A stretch of DNA of 64,000 nucleotides from Streptomonospora alba (GTDB lineage: Bacteria; Actinomycetota; Actinomycetes; Streptosporangiales; Streptosporangiaceae): positions 62,001-126,000 of the forward strand of contig NZ_JROO01000003.1 of the NCBI RefSeq assembly GCF_000826685.1, given 5' to 3'. The translations under genes were made by a program, and so were the position numbers. How positions within the stretch are numbered: the first letter of the stretch is position 1; the number at the start of each line of letters is the position of its first letter. The notes below the pieces were generated by a model. That model was not told the DNA's origin. It searched no databases and saw only the letters and a program-made list of their open reading frames with translations. Positions 8,535 through 17,871 of the stretch are shown here, one piece after another.

Positions 8535-9596
8535 CTAGCGCGAGCGACCGCGGATGCGGACCGAGCTGCCGATGCGGCGCTGACGGCGGCCCTGGCGCCA
8601 CCGCGGCAGCGCGTCACGGGCCAGGTCGGCGGCCCCGATCAACCCGGCCTGGTTGCCCAACTCGGCCGCTACGACGCCCGGCTCGGGCCGGTAGCCGCGC
8701 CCGGTCAGGGCGCGCCGGAAGGCCTGTCTGGCCGGCCCCAGCAGCAGCTCCCCGCTCTGCGAAACACCGCCGCCGATGACGAACAGCTCCGGATCGAAGG
8801 CCGCCGCGAGATTGGCCAGACCCACGCCCAGCCAGCTCCCGACCTCCTCCAGCAGCTCCACACAGGCCATGTCGCCCCCGCGCGCCAGCTCGCTCACCAG
8901 CGAACCGGTGATCAGCGAGGGAGTGCCGGACACGGCGCCCAGCAGGCCGCGCGCCACCGGCGAGTCGGCGGCGGCCAGTTCGCGCGCCTCGCGGGTGACC
9001 GCGTTGCCGCTGGCGTACTGCTCCCAGCAGCCGCGGTTGCCGCACTCGCATCGCCGCCCGCCGGGCACCACCGTCATGTGGCCGAACTCCCCGGCCATGC
9101 CGTGGCGGCCGCGGTAGAGCTCGCCGCCGATCACGACGGCGCCGCCGATCCCGGTACCCAGGTTGACCACAATCGTGTCTTCGGCGTCGCGTCCGGCCCC
9201 CACGCGCGCCTCGGCCCACGCCGCGGCGTTGGCGTCGTTCTCGACCACCACCGGAAGCTGCAACCGGGCGCGCAGCGCCTCGCGCAGCGGCTCCTCGCGC
9301 CAGGACAGGTGCGGCGCGAACAGCACGGTGGAGCGCTGCTCGTCGACGAACCCCGCCGCGCCCACGCCCACCGCACGCACCGGAAAGTCGCGCCGCAGCT
9401 CGGCGACGACGTCGGCGATGGTGTCCTCGACGACCTTGGGGCTCTTGCTGCGGTCGGGGGTCTCGGCGCGGGAGCGCGCGAGGATGCTGCCGCCGGGTGT
9501 CACCACACCGGCGGCCACCTTGCTGCCGCCGATGTCGACGCCGATCACCAGCCCGCGGTGATGGATCCGGGCGGCGTTCTCGCGCGAAGAAGCCAT
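8535..9596 (-). CDS. ROK family glucokinase
   Basis: ATP-dependent sugar kinase of 353 aa, ROK family. The phosphate-binding DIGGSK starts at Asp21; the catalytic Asp121 lies in VENDANAA; and a zinc site is formed by His173 and the CECGNRGC cysteines (183, 185, 190), the ROK signature. Actinobacterial proteins of this type are the main glucokinases and take part in carbon catabolite control. A TAGAGT box lies 9 nt before the ATG, so the mRNA leader is very short. The last 25 or so residues are basic (RWRQGRRQRRIG) and unusual. Confidence 0.88.
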   Translation of the reverse strand: MASSRENAARIHHRGLVIGVDIGGSKVAAGVVTPGGSILARSRAETPDRSKSPKVVEDTIADVVAELRRDFPVRAVGVGAAGFVDEQRSTVLFAPHLSWREEPLREALRARLQLPVVVENDANAAAWAEARVGAGRDAEDTIVVNLGTGIGGAVVIGGELYRGRHGMAGEFGHMTVVPGGRRCECGNRGCWEQYASGNAVTREARELAAADSPVARGLLGAVSGTPSLITGSLVSELARGGDMACVELLEEVGSWLGVGLANLAAAFDPELFVIGGGVSQSGELLLGPARQAFRRALTGRGYRPEPGVVAAELGNQAGLIGAADLARDALPRWRQGRRQRRIGSSVRIRGRSR

Positions 9597-9711
9597 CGTC
9601 GGGCCACTCTAGACGACCCTGGGCCGCGCCCTGGCGGACGTCGGCGCGTAGCAGCCGTCACACTCGCCGACCACCGGGCTCCCTACGGCCGAACGCCGTG
9701 CGACCCCTGTT

Positions 9712-10536
9712 TCAGCCCGCTCGGGAAAACGCGGACGGCTCGCCCGACGGCCGACCGGATCCCGGCTCGGCGGGAAGCTCCACGTCGTGGCGCCCGGCGA
9801 TGAGCTCCTGAACACGGATCTTGGCCTTGATCAGCGGACGGCGGATGCGCAGGTCACGGCGGATCGCCTGGGCCAGCTTCGGCGAGCCGGGCGGGTAGCG
9901 CCAGCGCGCCCACGGCGACCCCGGCACCGCCAGGCGCACGGCCGCCACCACCGAGATCGCCGGCAGGAACACTCCGGTCAGCCCGGTCCAGATCTTGCCC
10001 TTGAGCAGGCTGACGACCGAACCGGCCAGGTTGATCAGCGCAAGCGCCAGCAGCCCCGCCTCGACCCAGGTCTGCCAGCCGCCGGGGCCCACGCTGTGCA
10101 GCCAGGTCCAGCCGAAGGGGCGCAACCCCGTCAGCAGCAGACCGGTCAGCGCGACGGCGACGAACACCGCGTCGACCGAGGCGCGGCCCTTCTCGTTCCA
10201 GTAGACGTCGCGCAGATGCAGGATGAGCGCGAACTCGTCGAGTACCAGCGCCGAGCCCAGCCCGAACAGCCCCGCGGCCACGGCGATCGGCACTCCCTGG
10301 CGGTCGGGGACCACCAGCGCCGCCACACCGCCGACCATCATCAGCCCCACACCGAAGACCACGTGGTGGATGTGCAGGCCGCCCGGTCGCAGATTGCCCG
10401 GCCACCAGCGGACCCCCGCGCGGATCATCCGCACGCTCATCCGGATCAGCAGGAAGCCGGCCACGAACGCGACGAAGAAGCAGAAGAGCGGCAGACGGCC
10501 CGTCGACACGACGGTGCTGCCGAACCAGTCGACCAT
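9712..10536 (-). CDS. Multi-pass integral membrane protein, function unknown
   Basis: Membrane protein of 274 aa with about six hydrophobic segments spread through residues 10-215 and a basic cytoplasmic tail. A histidine-rich GLHIHHVVFGVGL motif near residue 53 and an acidic VLDEFALILHLRDVYW segment near residue 100 are conserved in actinobacterial homologues as I remember them. The ATG at 10536 has GAGGAG 5 nt upstream. I know no function; the HIHH cluster could bind a metal. It is separated by 115 bp from the glucokinase on the same strand. Confidence 0.75.
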   Translation of the reverse strand: MVDWFGSTVVSTGRLPLFCFFVAFVAGFLLIRMSVRMIRAGVRWWPGNLRPGGLHIHHVVFGVGLMMVGGVAALVVPDRQGVPIAVAAGLFGLGSALVLDEFALILHLRDVYWNEKGRASVDAVFVAVALTGLLLTGLRPFGWTWLHSVGPGGWQTWVEAGLLALALINLAGSVVSLLKGKIWTGLTGVFLPAISVVAAVRLAVPGSPWARWRYPPGSPKLAQAIRRDLRIRRPLIKAKIRVQELIAGRHDVELPAEPGSGRPSGEPSAFSRAG

Positions 10537-10954
10537 CGGACTCCTCGAGTGCGATACCGGCCTGGGAGCAGAGGGGGTGAGGCCGCGTCCACACTACGTG
10601 GCACCGACCGAGCGGAGCACTTTCGCCACCGTGTACACAGGCCGAAGTCCGCGCGACAACGGGCGGCGGCCCGGACCGGTACACCCCTGAGGCCCCGTCG
10701 CGGCGGCTTGCATCGACTCCGGGTCCGCCAAAAACGCCTTCCACTCGTAAACAGGGAAGGAGATGTGCCCCTGCTCACGGTCCCGAGTGCCTCTGAGGTC
10801 GACTGCCGTGGGTGTTCGGCGCGCCTCGGGCCTCCGGTGCTGCCGCAACCGCCCTTCCGCCGTCCGGCGCGGGCGGCGCGCGGCCGAGCCCGTGCGCTCG
10901 GCCGCGCCCGAATGAACCCGAGTGGATCCCCGCCGGACGTCCGGGAACCGGCCG
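10537..10954. other. Intergenic, no gene supported
   Basis: This 418-bp stretch lies upstream of the membrane protein and downstream of the KamA gene, both leftward. A GGAAGGAG followed by GTG at 10765 opens a rightward frame, but it is Arg/Pro-rich and runs antisense into the KamA gene, so I do not call it. No clear terminator or operator is visible. Confidence 0.5.
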
Positions 10955-12319
10955 TCAGGGGTGGGCGGTGCCGACGAGAGCGGAGGCGTCCTCGCGCGGG
11001 CCCTGCTCATGGGGGAAGCGTGTCGCCCCGAGCGCGGGCTCCAGGTCGGACAGCCAGACGGCCTTCTCGTCATAGCGGGCGAAGAAGGGCTTGCCCACCA
11101 GTTCGGGGTCGCGCGCCTGGATGAAGTGGCACACGAACACCTTCTCGCCGGCGACCTCGGTGACGCCGTCGATGCACACCTTGCCCGGGGTGGCCGACAT
11201 GGAGGGGCCGCGCACGGTGCGGGCCAGGCCGGAGACGTTGGCGAAGGCGCCGCGGAAGATCTCGTAGGCCTCGGCCAGCGGGACGGCGAAGTAGTCCTGC
11301 GGGCCCGTGTCGCGCTCGACGAACATGTAGTAGGGCACCATGCCGTGGCGGACGTGGGTGCGCCACATGCTCTCCCAGACGGCCGAATCGTCGTTGATCG
11401 TGCGGATCAGCGGCGCCTGGGTGCGGATGACGGCCCCCGTGTCGCGGATGCGCCGCACCGCGTCCTGGACGAGGGCGGGCGCCATCTCGTTGGGGTGGGA
11501 GAAGTGCGCCATGAACGCCAGGTTCTTGCCCGAGGCGACGACCTGCTCGAACAGGCGCAGGGTGTCGTCGGCGTCGGGATCGGTGGTGAAGCGCTGCGGC
11601 CAGTAGCCCAGCGCCTTGGTCCCGATGCGGATGGACTCCAGGGTCTCCACGCCCAGCAGCGGCTCGATGTAGCGCCGCAGGACCGAGTCGCCCATGATCA
11701 TCGGGTCGCCGCCGGTGAACAGGACGCTGGTGACCTCGGGGTGGTGGTGCAGATACTCGACCAGGTGGTCGATCTCGCCGGAGGCGAACTTCAGGTCCGG
11801 TTCGCCCACGAACTGCGCCCAGCGGAAGCAGTAGGTGCAGTACGCGTGGCAGGTCTGTCCCTGCTTGGGGAAGAACAGCACGGTCTCGGAGTACTTGTGC
11901 TGCATGCCCTCCAGCGGGTCCGTGCCGTCGGCGGTGGGCACGTTGAGGTCCATCTGCCCGGCCGGATGGGGGTTCAGCCGGCCGCGGATCTCGTTGGCCG
12001 CGGTGTTGATCTCCTTGCGCGAGGCGTCCCGGCGCAGCAGGTCGGCCATCCGCGAGACGTCGGAGGAGGGCAGCATGTCCGCCTGGGGGAAGACCAGCCG
12101 GTAGATGGGGTCGGCCGGCGCGGCGTCCCAGTCGATCAGCTCGTCGACGACGTAGCTGTTGACCCGGAACGGCAGCACTGTGGCGACCGCACGGACCGCG
12201 AGGCGTTCAGCCTCGCCCAGCCCGGCGCGAGCCGTGAGCTCGTCCAGGTGTTTCGTCGTGTAGGCACGAAACCGACGTCCGGCGGACGGGGACGGTGCCG
12301 CGTCGTGCGTCAAGCTCAC
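10955..12319 (-). CDS. KamA-family radical SAM aminomutase-like enzyme, substrate uncertain
   Basis: Radical SAM enzyme of 454 aa related to lysine 2,3-aminomutase. The [4Fe-4S] cysteines 157, 161 and 164 lie in CHAYCTYCF, and a PLP-type lysine, Lys380, sits in ATPGKV. The lysine-recognition Asp of true lysine 2,3-aminomutase lies seven residues before the PLP lysine (in DAPGGGGK); here that position is Ser373 and the GGGG run is missing. It is therefore probably an aminomutase for another amino acid. No beta-lysine acetyltransferase gene is adjacent. The GTG start has AAAGGAG 5 nt upstream. Confidence 0.82.
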   Translation of the reverse strand: MSLTHDAAPSPSAGRRFRAYTTKHLDELTARAGLGEAERLAVRAVATVLPFRVNSYVVDELIDWDAAPADPIYRLVFPQADMLPSSDVSRMADLLRRDASRKEINTAANEIRGRLNPHPAGQMDLNVPTADGTDPLEGMQHKYSETVLFFPKQGQTCHAYCTYCFRWAQFVGEPDLKFASGEIDHLVEYLHHHPEVTSVLFTGGDPMIMGDSVLRRYIEPLLGVETLESIRIGTKALGYWPQRFTTDPDADDTLRLFEQVVASGKNLAFMAHFSHPNEMAPALVQDAVRRIRDTGAVIRTQAPLIRTINDDSAVWESMWRTHVRHGMVPYYMFVERDTGPQDYFAVPLAEAYEIFRGAFANVSGLARTVRGPSMSATPGKVCIDGVTEVAGEKVFVCHFIQARDPELVGKPFFARYDEKAVWLSDLEPALGATRFPHEQGPREDASALVGTAHP

Positions 12320-12710
12320 GTGTCTCCTTTCCTGGGGGCGACGACCCGCCGTGCGGGGGGAGCAGGGCAGGCGGTAGCCGGGGAGCCCGCGGTCGGCGAG
12401 CTTCCCTGGTAATCAGTCAGCGGGTTGTGCCGCCGGTCGGGGCGATCGGCCCGAACCGGGCGGAAAAGAGTCATACCCGAACCTGCGCGGTTCGTACCCG
12501 ATTTCCGGGCATCAACCGCTGATCAGGGCGTTTCGGGCGCGGTCGGCCGGTCCGCCCGCGGCGGCCGGCATCTCGCAGCGTAACGTGGACCGCGTACGGT
12601 CAGGTGCGCCCGTCCGCAGGACCGCCGCCGATCGCGGCCTACGGGCCTGCGCCCGCGGCGTTTCCGGAGGGGATCTGGCCCGTGCTTCCGGCAATCGATG
12701 GAGGGGACGG
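12320..12710. promoter_or_regulatory. Divergent control region of the KamA-like gene and plsX
   Basis: About 390 bp separates the two divergent genes. It contains an inverted repeat CGAACC-TGCGC-GGTTCG at 12478-12494, which could be an operator or a small hairpin. The frame upstream of the plsX start (12585-12710) is open but Arg-rich and is not part of the conserved protein. No other gene is visible. Confidence 0.35.
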
Positions 12711-13817
12711 GTGAGCACACCCCAGACAGGCGTCCGCAGCGTGCACAGCGGACCGGTCATCGCCCTGGACGCCATGGGCGGCGACCACGGTCCGCAGGAG
12801 GCGGTCCGGGGAGCCGTGCGGGCGGTGCGCGAGCACGGGCTGCGTGTGGTGATGGTGGGCAGGCGCCCCGAGCTCGTGCGGCTGCTGGCCGAGGAGGACG
12901 CGGCGGGCGCCATTCCGATCGTGCACGCCGAGGACGCGCTGGCGATGCACGAGGGCGCGCTGGCGAGCTGGCGCCGACCGCGTTCCAGCGTCGCCGTGGC
13001 CTGCAAACTCATCCGGCAGGGTGAGGCCAGCGCGCTGGTGTCGGCGGGATCGACCGGCGGTGTTGTCGCCACCTCGACAGTGCGGCTGCGCACCCAGCAG
13101 GGCATCATGCGCCCGGCCCTGGCCGTGTCGCTGCCCACCCGCCCCGGTCCCACCGTCCTGCTCGACGCCGGCGCCAACGCCGACGCCAAACCCGAGATGC
13201 TGGTGCAGTTCGCCCACCTCGGCGCCGCCTACGCCCGCAGCGCCTTCGGCGTGGAGAACCCCAGGGTGGCGATGCTCACCATCGGCGCGGAGCCGGGCAA
13301 GGGGAACCGCCTGGCCCGCAAGACCGCGGAGCTGCTCACCGCGGCGGCCGCCCAGGCGCCGCAGGCCCAGCGGCTGGACTTCCGCGGCAACGTGGAGGGC
13401 CACGACCTGCTGGCGGGCGAGGTCGACGTCGTGGTCACCGACGGGTTCACCGGCAACGTGGCGCTGAAATCGGTCGAAGGCGCCGTGCGCTTCACCATGG
13501 ACGCCGTCGCCGAGGCGATGACCTCCAGCACCGCGGCCAAGGCCGGCTCGCTCCTGCAGCGCAAGGCCCTGCGGGAACTCCGCGGCCGGCTGGACAGCGA
13601 CACCTACGGCGGCGCCGTGCTGCTGGGCCTCAACGGCAGCGTGGTCATCTCCCACGGCGCCAGCCGCGGGCCGGCCGTCGAGCGGGCCTGCCGACTCGCC
13701 CACGACCTGACCGCAGGGGGCATCGGCGAGGAGGTCCGCAGCCGGGTGCAGTCCGGCGCGCGCTCGGCGCGGCGGCAGCGCCTGGGACCGGGCGGGGAGG
13801 AGCAGCCCGCCGGCTAG
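12711..13817 (+). CDS. plsX: Phosphate acyltransferase PlsX
   Basis: Acyl-ACP:phosphate acyltransferase of 368 aa, which makes acyl-phosphate for phosphatidic acid synthesis at the membrane. Family blocks visible are ALDAMGGDHGP near the N-terminus, SAGSTGGVVA, LDAGAN, NVEGHD and VTDGFTGNVALKS. I start it at GTG 12711 because GGAGGGG lies 4 nt upstream and homology begins just after; the open frame extends 42 codons further but looks non-coding. Its usual partners rpmF and fabH are not adjacent here. The last 20 residues are a low-complexity basic/Gly tail. Confidence 0.9.
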   Translation: MSTPQTGVRSVHSGPVIALDAMGGDHGPQEAVRGAVRAVREHGLRVVMVGRRPELVRLLAEEDAAGAIPIVHAEDALAMHEGALASWRRPRSSVAVACKLIRQGEASALVSAGSTGGVVATSTVRLRTQQGIMRPALAVSLPTRPGPTVLLDAGANADAKPEMLVQFAHLGAAYARSAFGVENPRVAMLTIGAEPGKGNRLARKTAELLTAAAAQAPQAQRLDFRGNVEGHDLLAGEVDVVVTDGFTGNVALKSVEGAVRFTMDAVAEAMTSSTAAKAGSLLQRKALRELRGRLDSDTYGGAVLLGLNGSVVISHGASRGPAVERACRLAHDLTAGGIGEEVRSRVQSGARSARRQRLGPGGEEQPAG

Positions 13818-15852: not shown

Positions 15853-16638
15853 TCAGCTCGCGGAGCAGCTGACCGAGGGCCGGCCGTTGTCGCCGTCGTG
15901 CTTGCCGACGAATCCGAAGCCCGCGCTCTGGCCCGCGGACAGGGAGCCGTTGCGGCCGGCGTCGGTGGCGGTGTAGGTGCCTCCCCCGCCGGAGACGTCG
16001 GCGTTCCACGCTTCCTCGATGGTCTGGCCGTCGGGGAACGCGATGGTCACCGTCCAGCCGCTGATCGACGCGTCGGCCCTCACCGTGACCCTGGCCTGGA
16101 AGCCGGAGGACCACTCGTTGGGGACCGAGTAGCCGGCCTCGCATCCTCCGCCCGAATCCGGCCCGGAGCCGCCCGCGGAGTCCGGGCCGTTTCCGTCGCC
16201 CCTGTCGCCGCCGGGCCCCGCGCCGTCAGGGCCTCCGCGCCCGTCGGGCCCTTCGCTCCCCAGAGCACCGTCCCCGCCGTCGTCGCCGTCTCCCCCGTCG
16301 TCCTGCTGCGATTCCCCGGCTTCCTCCTGGGGCTCCTCGGATTCCTCGTTCTCCGGAGGCGCCGAAGGGGCCTGCGCCTCCGCCGAGGACTCCTGCTCGC
16401 CGTCGGCGACAGGAGCGTCGGCGGGGCCGGAACTCGTCGCGGGTGCGGGAGGAGGCGGGTCGCCCACGCCGACCCGGGTGTCGTCGCCGCTGAGCGCCAT
16501 CCCCGTGATGAGCACGCCGCTGCAGGCCAGAGCGGCGGCCAGGGCGCCGACCGCGAGCACGCGGCGCTTGCGACGCTCCCGCCTGCGCCGAGCGGTCCGC
16601 GTGAGAACGGGGCCGGCGTCGGACGTGTCGCTGCTCAT
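15853..16638 (-). CDS. Membrane-anchored protein with C-terminal cellulose-binding module (CBM2)
   Basis: Protein of 261 aa. A basic cytoplasmic N-terminus (TARRRRERRKRR) is followed by one transmembrane segment (about residues 28-50), an acidic Gly/Asp/Glu/Pro linker (about 55-165) and a C-terminal CBM2. The module shows the family pattern: flanking cysteines, NEWSSGFQARVTV, ISGWTVTIAFPDGQTIEEAWN and LSAGQSAGFGFVG. It would be displayed on the cell surface and could bind cellulose, chitin or another glycan; there is no catalytic domain. Its N-terminal half and upstream leader are shared with the next gene, indicating tandem duplication. Confidence 0.85.
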   Translation of the reverse strand: MSSDTSDAGPVLTRTARRRRERRKRRVLAVGALAAALACSGVLITGMALSGDDTRVGVGDPPPPAPATSSGPADAPVADGEQESSAEAQAPSAPPENEESEEPQEEAGESQQDDGGDGDDGGDGALGSEGPDGRGGPDGAGPGGDRGDGNGPDSAGGSGPDSGGGCEAGYSVPNEWSSGFQARVTVRADASISGWTVTIAFPDGQTIEEAWNADVSGGGGTYTATDAGRNGSLSAGQSAGFGFVGKHDGDNGRPSVSCSAS

Positions 16639-16836: not shown

Positions 16837-17466
16837 CTAGAAGGGGTAGTCGGCGTACTCGTCCACGTCGGTGCCGTCGGGGGACTCGGGGGTGTTCCAG
16901 GCGTCCCCGTCGCCTTCGTCCCGGTCGTCGTGGTCGGCGCCGCCCTCCTGCCACGGCGGCCGCCCGCGCCCGTCCCGGTCGTACCGGTCATACCGGTCAT
17001 ACCGGTCGTCGTCGGGCCAGTCTCCTCTGCCGGAGGGGCCCGCGCTCCCGTCGTCCTCGTCGCCGTCGTCGTCAGCGCCCTGCTGCCGGCCCTCGCCGCC
17101 ACCGGATGGGGCGCCGCCGCCGGCGCCTCCGCCCGATGAACCGCCGTCGTCCGGTTCGTCCTGGGGCTGCTGCGAGGACGCGGGAGCCGCTGTAGGAGCG
17201 GCCGCCTCCGCCGTGGTCTGCCGCTCGCCCTCCACCACGGGCGAATCCGTCGGGCCGGCGCTCATACCGCCCGGCGGCGGAGGGTCGTCCACGCCCACCT
17301 CGCTGCCCTCGCCGCTCAGCGCCAGGCCCATGGCGAGCACGCCGCCGAAGGCCAGACCGGCCGTGAGCGTGCTCGCCGCGAAGAGGAGGCGCGTGCGGCG
17401 CCGCTCCCGCCTGCGCCGAGCGGTCCGGGTGAGGACGGCCTCGGAGCCGTGAGTGTCGCTGCTCAT
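16837..17466 (-). CDS. Membrane-anchored acidic low-complexity protein, paralogue lacking CBM2
   Basis: Protein of 209 aa starting at ATG 17466 (MSSDTHGSEAVLTRTARRRRERR), which matches the start of the adjacent CBM2 protein. The same basic N-terminus, single transmembrane segment and DDPPPP linker follow, but the C-terminal half is Gly/Asp-rich, with a DRYDRYDRYDR repeat near residue 165, and ends in DEYADYPF. The carbohydrate-binding module is absent. The longer open frame upstream to 17673 is non-coding. It probably arose by duplication with loss or replacement of the C-terminal domain. Function is unknown; a cell-wall role is only suggested by the sister gene. Confidence 0.7.
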   Translation of the reverse strand: MSSDTHGSEAVLTRTARRRRERRRTRLLFAASTLTAGLAFGGVLAMGLALSGEGSEVGVDDPPPPGGMSAGPTDSPVVEGERQTTAEAAAPTAAPASSQQPQDEPDDGGSSGGGAGGGAPSGGGEGRQQGADDDGDEDDGSAGPSGRGDWPDDDRYDRYDRYDRDGRGRPPWQEGGADHDDRDEGDGDAWNTPESPDGTDVDEYADYPF

Positions 17467-17871
17467 ACGGGTCGCTGACTTGTCGGGGATGGGCGCACCG
17501 GCGCCGGTTCCCTCGTGTGCAGGGGGTCCCACGGCGCCCACGCCCCACAAGGGTACAGCGCGGACATCCCCGAGCAATGCGGACCATAGGGCCGGATCAG
17601 GCCGCTCCGCGCCCCGGCCGGATGCGTGGAGCGCCACCGCCCGCATCGCAGCGGCGTGTGAGTAATACGACAACGGCCGAGGTGAAAGACGACCGAAAGC
17701 GGCCTTTCACCACGTGCCGATACCCCTTGACCGTCCCGGACGGGCGGAGGGGAGCCGTGTCTGCACCGCGGATCGCGCACGCGCCACCTGCGGCGCACCC
17801 CCAGGAGCGGTGCCGACCGGCATCGAAACGGGATATTAGCCTGAGAGAGACCAAACGAGGGGAAAGCAGAC
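17467..17871. promoter_or_regulatory. Control region between the acidic membrane protein and yceI
   Basis: This 405-bp divergent region holds the second copy of the conserved element (17544-17560, TGTACCCTTGTGGGG read leftward). It also has an inverted repeat GGTGAAAG (17681-17688) / CTTTCACC (17704-17711), and a TAGCCT -10 candidate at 17837-17842 ahead of the YceI gene, whose ATG follows a GAGGGGAAAG ribosome site. No additional gene is seen. Confidence 0.5.

Follow-up and report, generated by a model that had tools for sequence, protein, structure and literature searches.

An arginine-pocket branch of KamA-type radical SAM proteins, with a candidate glutamate 2,3-aminomutase in Streptomonospora alba

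The locus

The window analysed here, a 64,000-nucleotide stretch of Streptomonospora alba DNA (contig NZ_JROO01000003.1, positions 62,001 to 126,000), carries a gene for a KamA-like radical SAM protein (Table 1). An earlier sequence-only reading had given the limits of the gene correctly without its strand, which is minus. The GTG start is kept in all 11 aligned upstream sequences, with the GGAGA site ahead of it, and the 5.9 Mb genome contains a single match to the protein at E 0.001.

Table 1. Positions in the window of the KamA-like gene and its landmarks
Feature	Position	Strand	Evidence
KamA-like radical SAM gene, 454 aa	10955..12319	-	GTG start at 12319; model matches 2a5h
GGAGA ribosome-binding site	12323..12327	-	found in 11/11 aligned upstream sequences
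CxxxCxxC cluster motif, codons 157-164 (CHAYCTYC)	11828..11851	-	C157, C161 and C164 in 110/110 relatives
Codon of R336, at the D293 place of lysine 2,3-aminomutase	11312..11314	-	2a5h alignment; relatives
Codons 367-370 (RTVR), two invariant arginines preceding the PLP lysine	11210..11221	-	109/109 relatives
Codon of S373, at the D330 place; Ser or Val in relatives	11201..11203	-	alignment
Codon of K380, PLP lysine (K337 of 2a5h)	11180..11182	-	alignment

Downstream on the same strand lie genes for a protein without a Pfam match and then for ROK, SDR and enoyl-CoA hydratase proteins; across 80 loci, the genes downstream of the kamA-like gene vary between groups. In 68 of the 80 loci, a divergent plsX homologue lies upstream at a distance of no more than five gene calls, and in 34 it adjoins kamA; the neighbour calls, both here and in the cassette comparisons below, are rough ones from a simple codon-position gene caller. 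A functional link between kamA and plsX was considered and set aside, because plsX is the only match of its kind in the genome and the order therefore looks inherited.

Since passages of PMC9337991 report Na+ riboswitches beside ablA and eam, riboswitch control was looked for; an Rfam search of seven loci gave no match reaching its gathering score, and the one match within window positions 9500-13200 lies far below its own. Further along the window, two neighbouring minus-strand frames (15853-16638 and 16837-17673) have different ends and a similar N-terminal half, which comprises a basic stretch, a membrane segment and a proline-rich linker.

Family membership and fold

An NCBIfam search with the protein returned six KamA-type families (E 1e-25 to 4.5e-38), each below its curated cut-off: TIGR00238 for the KamA family (131.1 vs 199.2 bits), AblA_like_2 (118.5 vs 396.25), TIGR03820 for lysine 2,3-aminomutase (116.5 vs 525.4), TIGR04368 for glutamate 2,3-aminomutase (97.1 vs 650), TIGR03821 for EpmB (95.6 vs 369.3) and TIGR04468 for arginine 2,3-aminomutase (90.5 vs 600). 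Sequence searches led to a single solved relative, the lysine 2,3-aminomutase 2a5h. A model built with AlphaFold2 from 28 sequences (mean pLDDT 87.5, pTM 0.87) matched this entry in VIA-align with Z 33.6 and an rmsd of 4.4 over 350 residues at 22% identity, the next entry reaching Z 15.0, and Foldseek TM-scores of the model to 2a5h were modest (0.59 and 0.65-0.66, rmsd about 9). The CxxxCxxC cysteines (Cys157, Cys161 and Cys164), the PLP lysine (Lys380) and the VIA-align score together place the protein, as modelled, in the KamA fold.

Residues of the substrate pocket and PLP site

In lysine 2,3-aminomutase, Asp293 and Asp330 are taken here to hold the lysine side chain, the 2a5h numbering of these residues and of Lys337 being that of the HMMER output. 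The sequence-only reading had named Lys380 as the PLP lysine and Ser373 as the equivalent of Asp330. Both assignments are confirmed by the spacing, as the stretch that runs from the SG serine to the PLP Lys counts 17 residues in both proteins, and by a 28-sequence profile that aligns this stretch to 2a5h without a gap. Asp293 falls on Arg336, gapless between PYY and F, so that Arg and Ser occupy the positions where a lysine 2,3-aminomutase has two aspartates. The earlier suggestion that Asp293 was either replaced by Arg or shifted by one residue stands as to the replacement; the shift is not needed, because the neighbouring lineages keep the Arg (10/10) but the following Asp in none of the eight shown. 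The reduced glycine run that had also been described is likewise seen, with TPGK against PGGGGK, and resembles the EPSK of the EpmB row.

A basic residue also replaces Asp293 in the glutamate-type rows of our comparison, which carry Lys where the S. alba protein has Arg336. The two sites of the clostridial glutamate enzyme are presumably Lys and Asn.

These positions were followed through 110 relatives that share 45% identity or more across 350 residues or more; the S. alba copy itself and a truncated fragment of that copy are counted among them. Arg336, Arg166 and the three cluster cysteines are present in all 110 and Lys380 in 109 (one gap), and site 373 is Ser in 98, Val in 11 and a gap in one. 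Arg336 rather than Ser373 is the telling mark, because site 373 varies between Ser and Val while Arg336 is invariant. Within the aligned relatives Arg336 is thus the branch-wide and informative change, and the emphasis previously laid on Ser373 was misplaced, as relatives found in one and the same type of cassette have either Ser or Val there.

Two features had escaped the earlier reading: Thr146, which stands at the place of Arg116 of 2a5h and is invariant in 110/110 relatives, and Arg367 and Arg370 shortly ahead of the PLP lysine, which are invariant in all 109 relatives reaching that region. We take Arg112 and Arg116 of 2a5h to bind the PLP phosphate and Arg134 to bind the carboxylate. As aligned, the PLP site of the S. 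alba protein differs from that of 2a5h, with Arg116 replaced by Thr. The substitutions in the substrate pocket are confirmed.

Pocket types and phylogeny

The Asp293 and Asp330 sites were compared across a 63-row set, in which labels came from a profile scan of ten proteins and the remaining rows were grouped by the tree. Two rows exceed the lysine cut-off (L093, 570.1; L120, 549.8) and one the EpmB cut-off (L119), and these three retain acids at both sites; the glutamate-type label is anchored by L097, which scores 636.9 on the glutamate profile, slightly below 650, and 422.9 on its next profile. The sites are Asp/Asp in all five lysine-type and all five myxobacterial KamA rows, Asp/Glu in the single EpmB row and Lys/Ser in all four glutamate-type rows. 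Of six other rows, five have Asp and one has Glu at the first site, and five have Asp and one has a gap at the second. In the S. alba clade (32 rows), Arg is combined with Ser in 23 and with Val in 9, and ten rows from neighbouring lineages have Arg throughout, mostly with Ile (6/10).

The tree came from a quick search with one support type and a midpoint root; EpmB lies on a long branch flagged by the tool, and a stop codon in row L070 was treated as a gap. The 32 rows, which include the S. alba protein and four cassette members, form one branch with support 100, nested in a 42-row branch (support 99) with the ten neighbouring Arg rows, which do not themselves form one group. The four glutamate-type rows group with the lysine type (branch support 89) away from the S. 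alba branch, and the basic residue at the Asp293 site would therefore be convergent. Two Myxococcus copies (L036 and L042) group with a Nocardiopsis copy (L012; support 99), a placement suggesting that they were acquired from actinomycetes.

A genome scan with the protein found at least 580 encoding stretches, the best 80 of which are 71-93% identical and come mostly from Streptosporangiales and kin, with five Myxococcus loci. Some match is present in 44 of 60 genomes including that of S. alba, and in 32 of these it is a long match of at least 61%; in a sample of 197 genomes from the class, 75 contain some match, and in 22, its own included, there is a long one of at least 55%. The closest among the matches listed are a contig labelled Nocardiopsis prasina (L002, 93%) and Streptomonospora sp. 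PA3 (90%). The other Nocardiopsis loci among the matches listed are about 80-85% identical, and the N. prasina contig is possibly mislabelled or foreign.

Relatives in antibiotic gene clusters

In Streptomyces sp. NBC_00334 (L169), the gene for a member of the branch 55% identical to the S. alba protein has a proline iminopeptidase-type hydrolase gene on one side and a PLP enzyme gene on the other. The locus also encodes type I polyketide synthases, two AMP ligases, a carrier protein and an acyltransferase; ligases, carrier protein, acyltransferase and hydrolase are of the macrolactam starter kind. The PDB entries closest to the adjacent ligase are 5jjq (618.7 bits), 7dq5 (579.7) and 5jjp (571.8); a review table gives 5JJQ as IdnL1 with 3-aminobutyrate and 5JJP as CmiS6 (PMC11253843). 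Those closest to the PLP enzyme are aspartate aminotransferases. Comparison of 15 further loci with this cassette revealed the PLP enzyme at 65-68% in four (L179, L180, L181 and L183) and the ligase at 57-61% in three of the four, where L180 ends at a contig edge and L180 and L181 come from close relatives.

The kamA-like product at L153/L183 is 72% identical to the S. alba protein and has the same Ser373. Polyketide synthase modules lie 15-37 kb upstream of the gene at L183, and about 100 kb of sequence showed no gene resembling VinJ, VinK, VinL or VinM. Arg336, Arg367, Arg370 and Lys380 are identical in stand-alone and cassette members, and the S. alba protein falls in a branch that has members in 3-aminobutyrate-type cassettes. 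A search of 41 relatives' genomes, including that of S. alba, without a positive control gave no IdnL1-like ligase at E 1e-60. The S. alba genome encodes a PLP enzyme (G000:C68) that shares 50% identity with the NBC_00334 one and was considered as a decarboxylase partner, but this idea was set aside: homologues also occur in relatives without the kamA-like gene (G007, G010, G037, G038 and G039), and genes of this type adjoin what by eye is a LysR-like regulator gene in 3/5 loci viewed.

Excerpts of the literature on macrolactams describe similar arrangements. The incednine enzyme IdnL4 was assigned to glutamate by gene deletion, in vitro activity not having been seen (PMC11284099), and was used as a glutamate 2,3-aminomutase in a genome-mining study (PMC10662134). 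Pretilactam PlmK, a 450-residue l-lysine 2,3-aminomutase homologue with the predicted function of a glutamate 2,3-aminomutase, adjoins PlmJ, a PLP-dependent aminotransferase of 419 residues (PMC6631532), and such aminomutase/PLP-enzyme gene pairs are named in several macrolactam producers (PMC9230918). The cassettes of the relatives appear to fit those of IdnL4 and PlmK in gene make-up and size, a likeness judged by gene order, annotation and the ligase. PMC10513789, which in the part consulted deals with an anthranilate compound, was set aside as irrelevant to the enzyme.

Other members adjoin NRPS genes (L105, L178 and L108), a type III PKS (L106), acyl-CoA genes (L107) or a cupin and a MetRS-like gene (L109 and L110). 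Since the neighbourhoods differ in this way, the relatives need not all share one substrate. At L109:3023-16710 (a Rhodococcus plasmid) and L110:7944-17293 (Burkholderia arboris), ATP-grasp genes are also present, and L109 additionally has SidA-type and luciferase-like monooxygenases; we take these gene sets to resemble a nitrogen-nitrogen bond (hydrazine-type) cluster.

More distant proteins are found elsewhere. Relatives at 33-37% identity on rhizobial plasmids (L111, L172 and L173) have Arg at the Arg336 site and adjoin ectB-type aminotransferase and ATP-grasp genes (L111 and L172) or gamma-glutamyltransferase, 7TM and ATP-grasp genes (L173). Tandem KamA-like genes occur at L100:1372-2586 and L100:2837-3922 (G166), and a second such gene at L102:1495-2583 (G155). 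One gene of the L100 tandem has the cysteine motif; the other is without two of the three cysteines and keeps the PLP lysine, and the two gene products are possibly partners of which only one is catalytic. KamA-like proteins, annotated as hypothetical, are also encoded by nine Pseudomonas phages of about 200 kb; they align to 61% of the Rhodococcus member at 29-30% identity.

Beta-glutamate in Nocardiopsis

Parts of the literature report beta-glutamate from Nocardiopsis halophila, one of few bacteria in which it has been detected (PMC1224877), and list it among Nocardiopsis solutes (PMC5884947). The sections of the beta-glutamate review consulted give no route for Nocardiopsis; for methanogens, they relate that early NMR work excluded a glutamate aminomutase and describe a non-aminomutase route (PMC1224877). 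The only TIGR00238 match in the N. halophila genome is the orthologue of the window's gene, which is 85% identical over the aligned columns and the same at all eight residues checked; a single match was likewise found in Thermobifida fusca and in N. kunsanensis, and three in a Myxococcus genome. We infer that the gene may be the source of the N. halophila beta-glutamate, and a limited literature search found no paper making this connection. Against it speak the methanogen finding and the many carriers that belong to genera not known as halophiles. Perhaps beta-glutamate serves as an osmolyte in the window's host and its kin, a suggestion that goes back to one reported species.

Proposed reaction and alternatives

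On balance, we think it probable that the S. alba protein is a radical SAM, PLP-dependent glutamate 2,3-aminomutase of the IdnL4 kind that makes beta-glutamate. For the clade as a whole, the basic pocket residue and the likeness of the relatives' cassettes to the IdnL4/PlmK clusters make glutamate the best guess at a substrate. A mechanism is proposed in which L-glutamate would form a Schiff base with PLP at Lys380, the 5'-deoxyadenosyl radical would abstract the beta hydrogen, and the amino group would shift from C2 to C3 to give beta-glutamate, with Arg336, perhaps together with Arg367 and Arg370, holding the gamma-carboxylate. In the antibiotic-cluster relatives, beta-glutamate would then be decarboxylated to 3-aminobutyrate and loaded on the polyketide synthase; in the window's host and kin, where the gene stands alone beside plsX, beta-glutamate itself may be the product, for example as an osmolyte. 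The earlier expectation of a beta-amino acid from a substrate other than lysine gains support from the branch-wide substitutions, the profile scores below cut-off and the gene company of the relatives, all of which are read from sequence.

The very different gene clusters of clade members could instead point to a 2,3-aminomutase whose substrate is a different amino acid of acidic or polar character, such as aspartate, glutamine, 2-aminoadipate or some modified amino acid, with glutamate used only in the macrolactam members. Such a division would suit the slight differences at site 373 and its flanks (Ser in 17/17 stand-alone rows, Val in 3/4 macrolactam rows) and the other gene company of the neighbouring lineages that have Arg at the Arg336 site. 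We regard it as unlikely, however, given the four residues common to stand-alone and cassette members and a cassette member as close as L153, Ser373 included. More doubtful still is a departure from aminomutase chemistry altogether, in which a KamA-fold enzyme with an altered cofactor site (Thr146 for Arg116, RxxR before the lysine) would catalyse another reaction. The invariance of Thr146 and of the new arginines, and the failure of all KamA-type profiles, TIGR00238 included, to reach their cut-offs could be read in this way, but the cysteines, Arg166 and the PLP lysine are equally invariant, the modelled fold matches 2a5h over its whole length, and relatives lie in the kind of cassette for which the IdnL4 reaction was assigned, according to passages of PMC11284099.

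Members of the branch are annotated as lysine 2,3-aminomutase in many plasmid records among the matches listed, and the closest solved relative is such an enzyme; it is nevertheless highly improbable that the protein is a genuine lysine enzyme whose pocket was rebuilt, as it gains less than a quarter of the bits demanded by the lysine profile and the branch has Arg and Ser or Val where the rows above the lysine cut-off have Asp and Asp. By no test made here is the protein predicted to be a lysine enzyme, and the label that the branch bears in many public records is very probably wrong. The short loop ahead of the PLP lysine recalls EpmB, the enzyme of EF-P beta-lysylation, but this identity is scarcely credible: the EpmB profile score is likewise far below its cut-off, the two pocket sites are Asp and Glu in the EpmB row, and the genome gives no match above cut-off to the partner GenX/EpmA (best 207.5 vs 286.9).

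If the protein is a glutamate 2,3-aminomutase, a wider picture can be sketched, one that we hold tentatively and with more doubt than confidence. A second kind of glutamate 2,3-aminomutase would have an origin separate from that of the clostridial enzyme and an arginine pocket, with the PLP phosphate clamp relocated from Arg116 to the RxxR beside the PLP lysine; the stand-alone chromosomal gene of Nocardiopsis and kin would supply beta-glutamate as an actinomycete compatible solute, and antibiotic clusters would employ the same enzyme for starter units. The branch is widespread in actinomycetes and commonly goes by the lysine 2,3-aminomutase name, and beta-glutamate is both a salt protectant and an antibiotic building block. 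Were beta-glutamate the product, the origin of that of N. halophila would become genetically testable, and many natural variants would be at hand for the in vitro reaction that, according to passages of PMC11284099, was not seen with IdnL4.

Comparison with known systems

The S. alba protein shares the fold, the cysteines and the PLP lysine with the lysine enzyme of 2a5h and TIGR03820, at 22% identity over the 350 aligned residues, but it is without both substrate-binding aspartates and its glycine run is reduced. It resembles EpmB (TIGR03821) in the short loop ahead of the PLP lysine, whereas EpmB retains Asp and Glu in the pocket and ends shortly past that lysine. It agrees with the glutamate enzyme of TIGR04368 in having a basic residue in place of Asp293 and a small polar residue in place of Asp330 (Lys and Ser in 4/4 rows); in contrast to that enzyme, it has Arg rather than Lys, has lost the Arg112/Arg116 pair (Lys142 and Thr146) and lies elsewhere in the tree. 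The window's gene differs from the IdnL4-type clusters in standing without a PLP enzyme/ligase cassette and is like them in being a KamA-type radical SAM gene, relatives of which, 55-72% identical, adjoin a PLP enzyme and an IdnL1-related ligase. The size of PlmK, described in part of PMC6631532 as a lysine 2,3-aminomutase homologue of 450 residues, is near the 454 residues of the S. alba protein.
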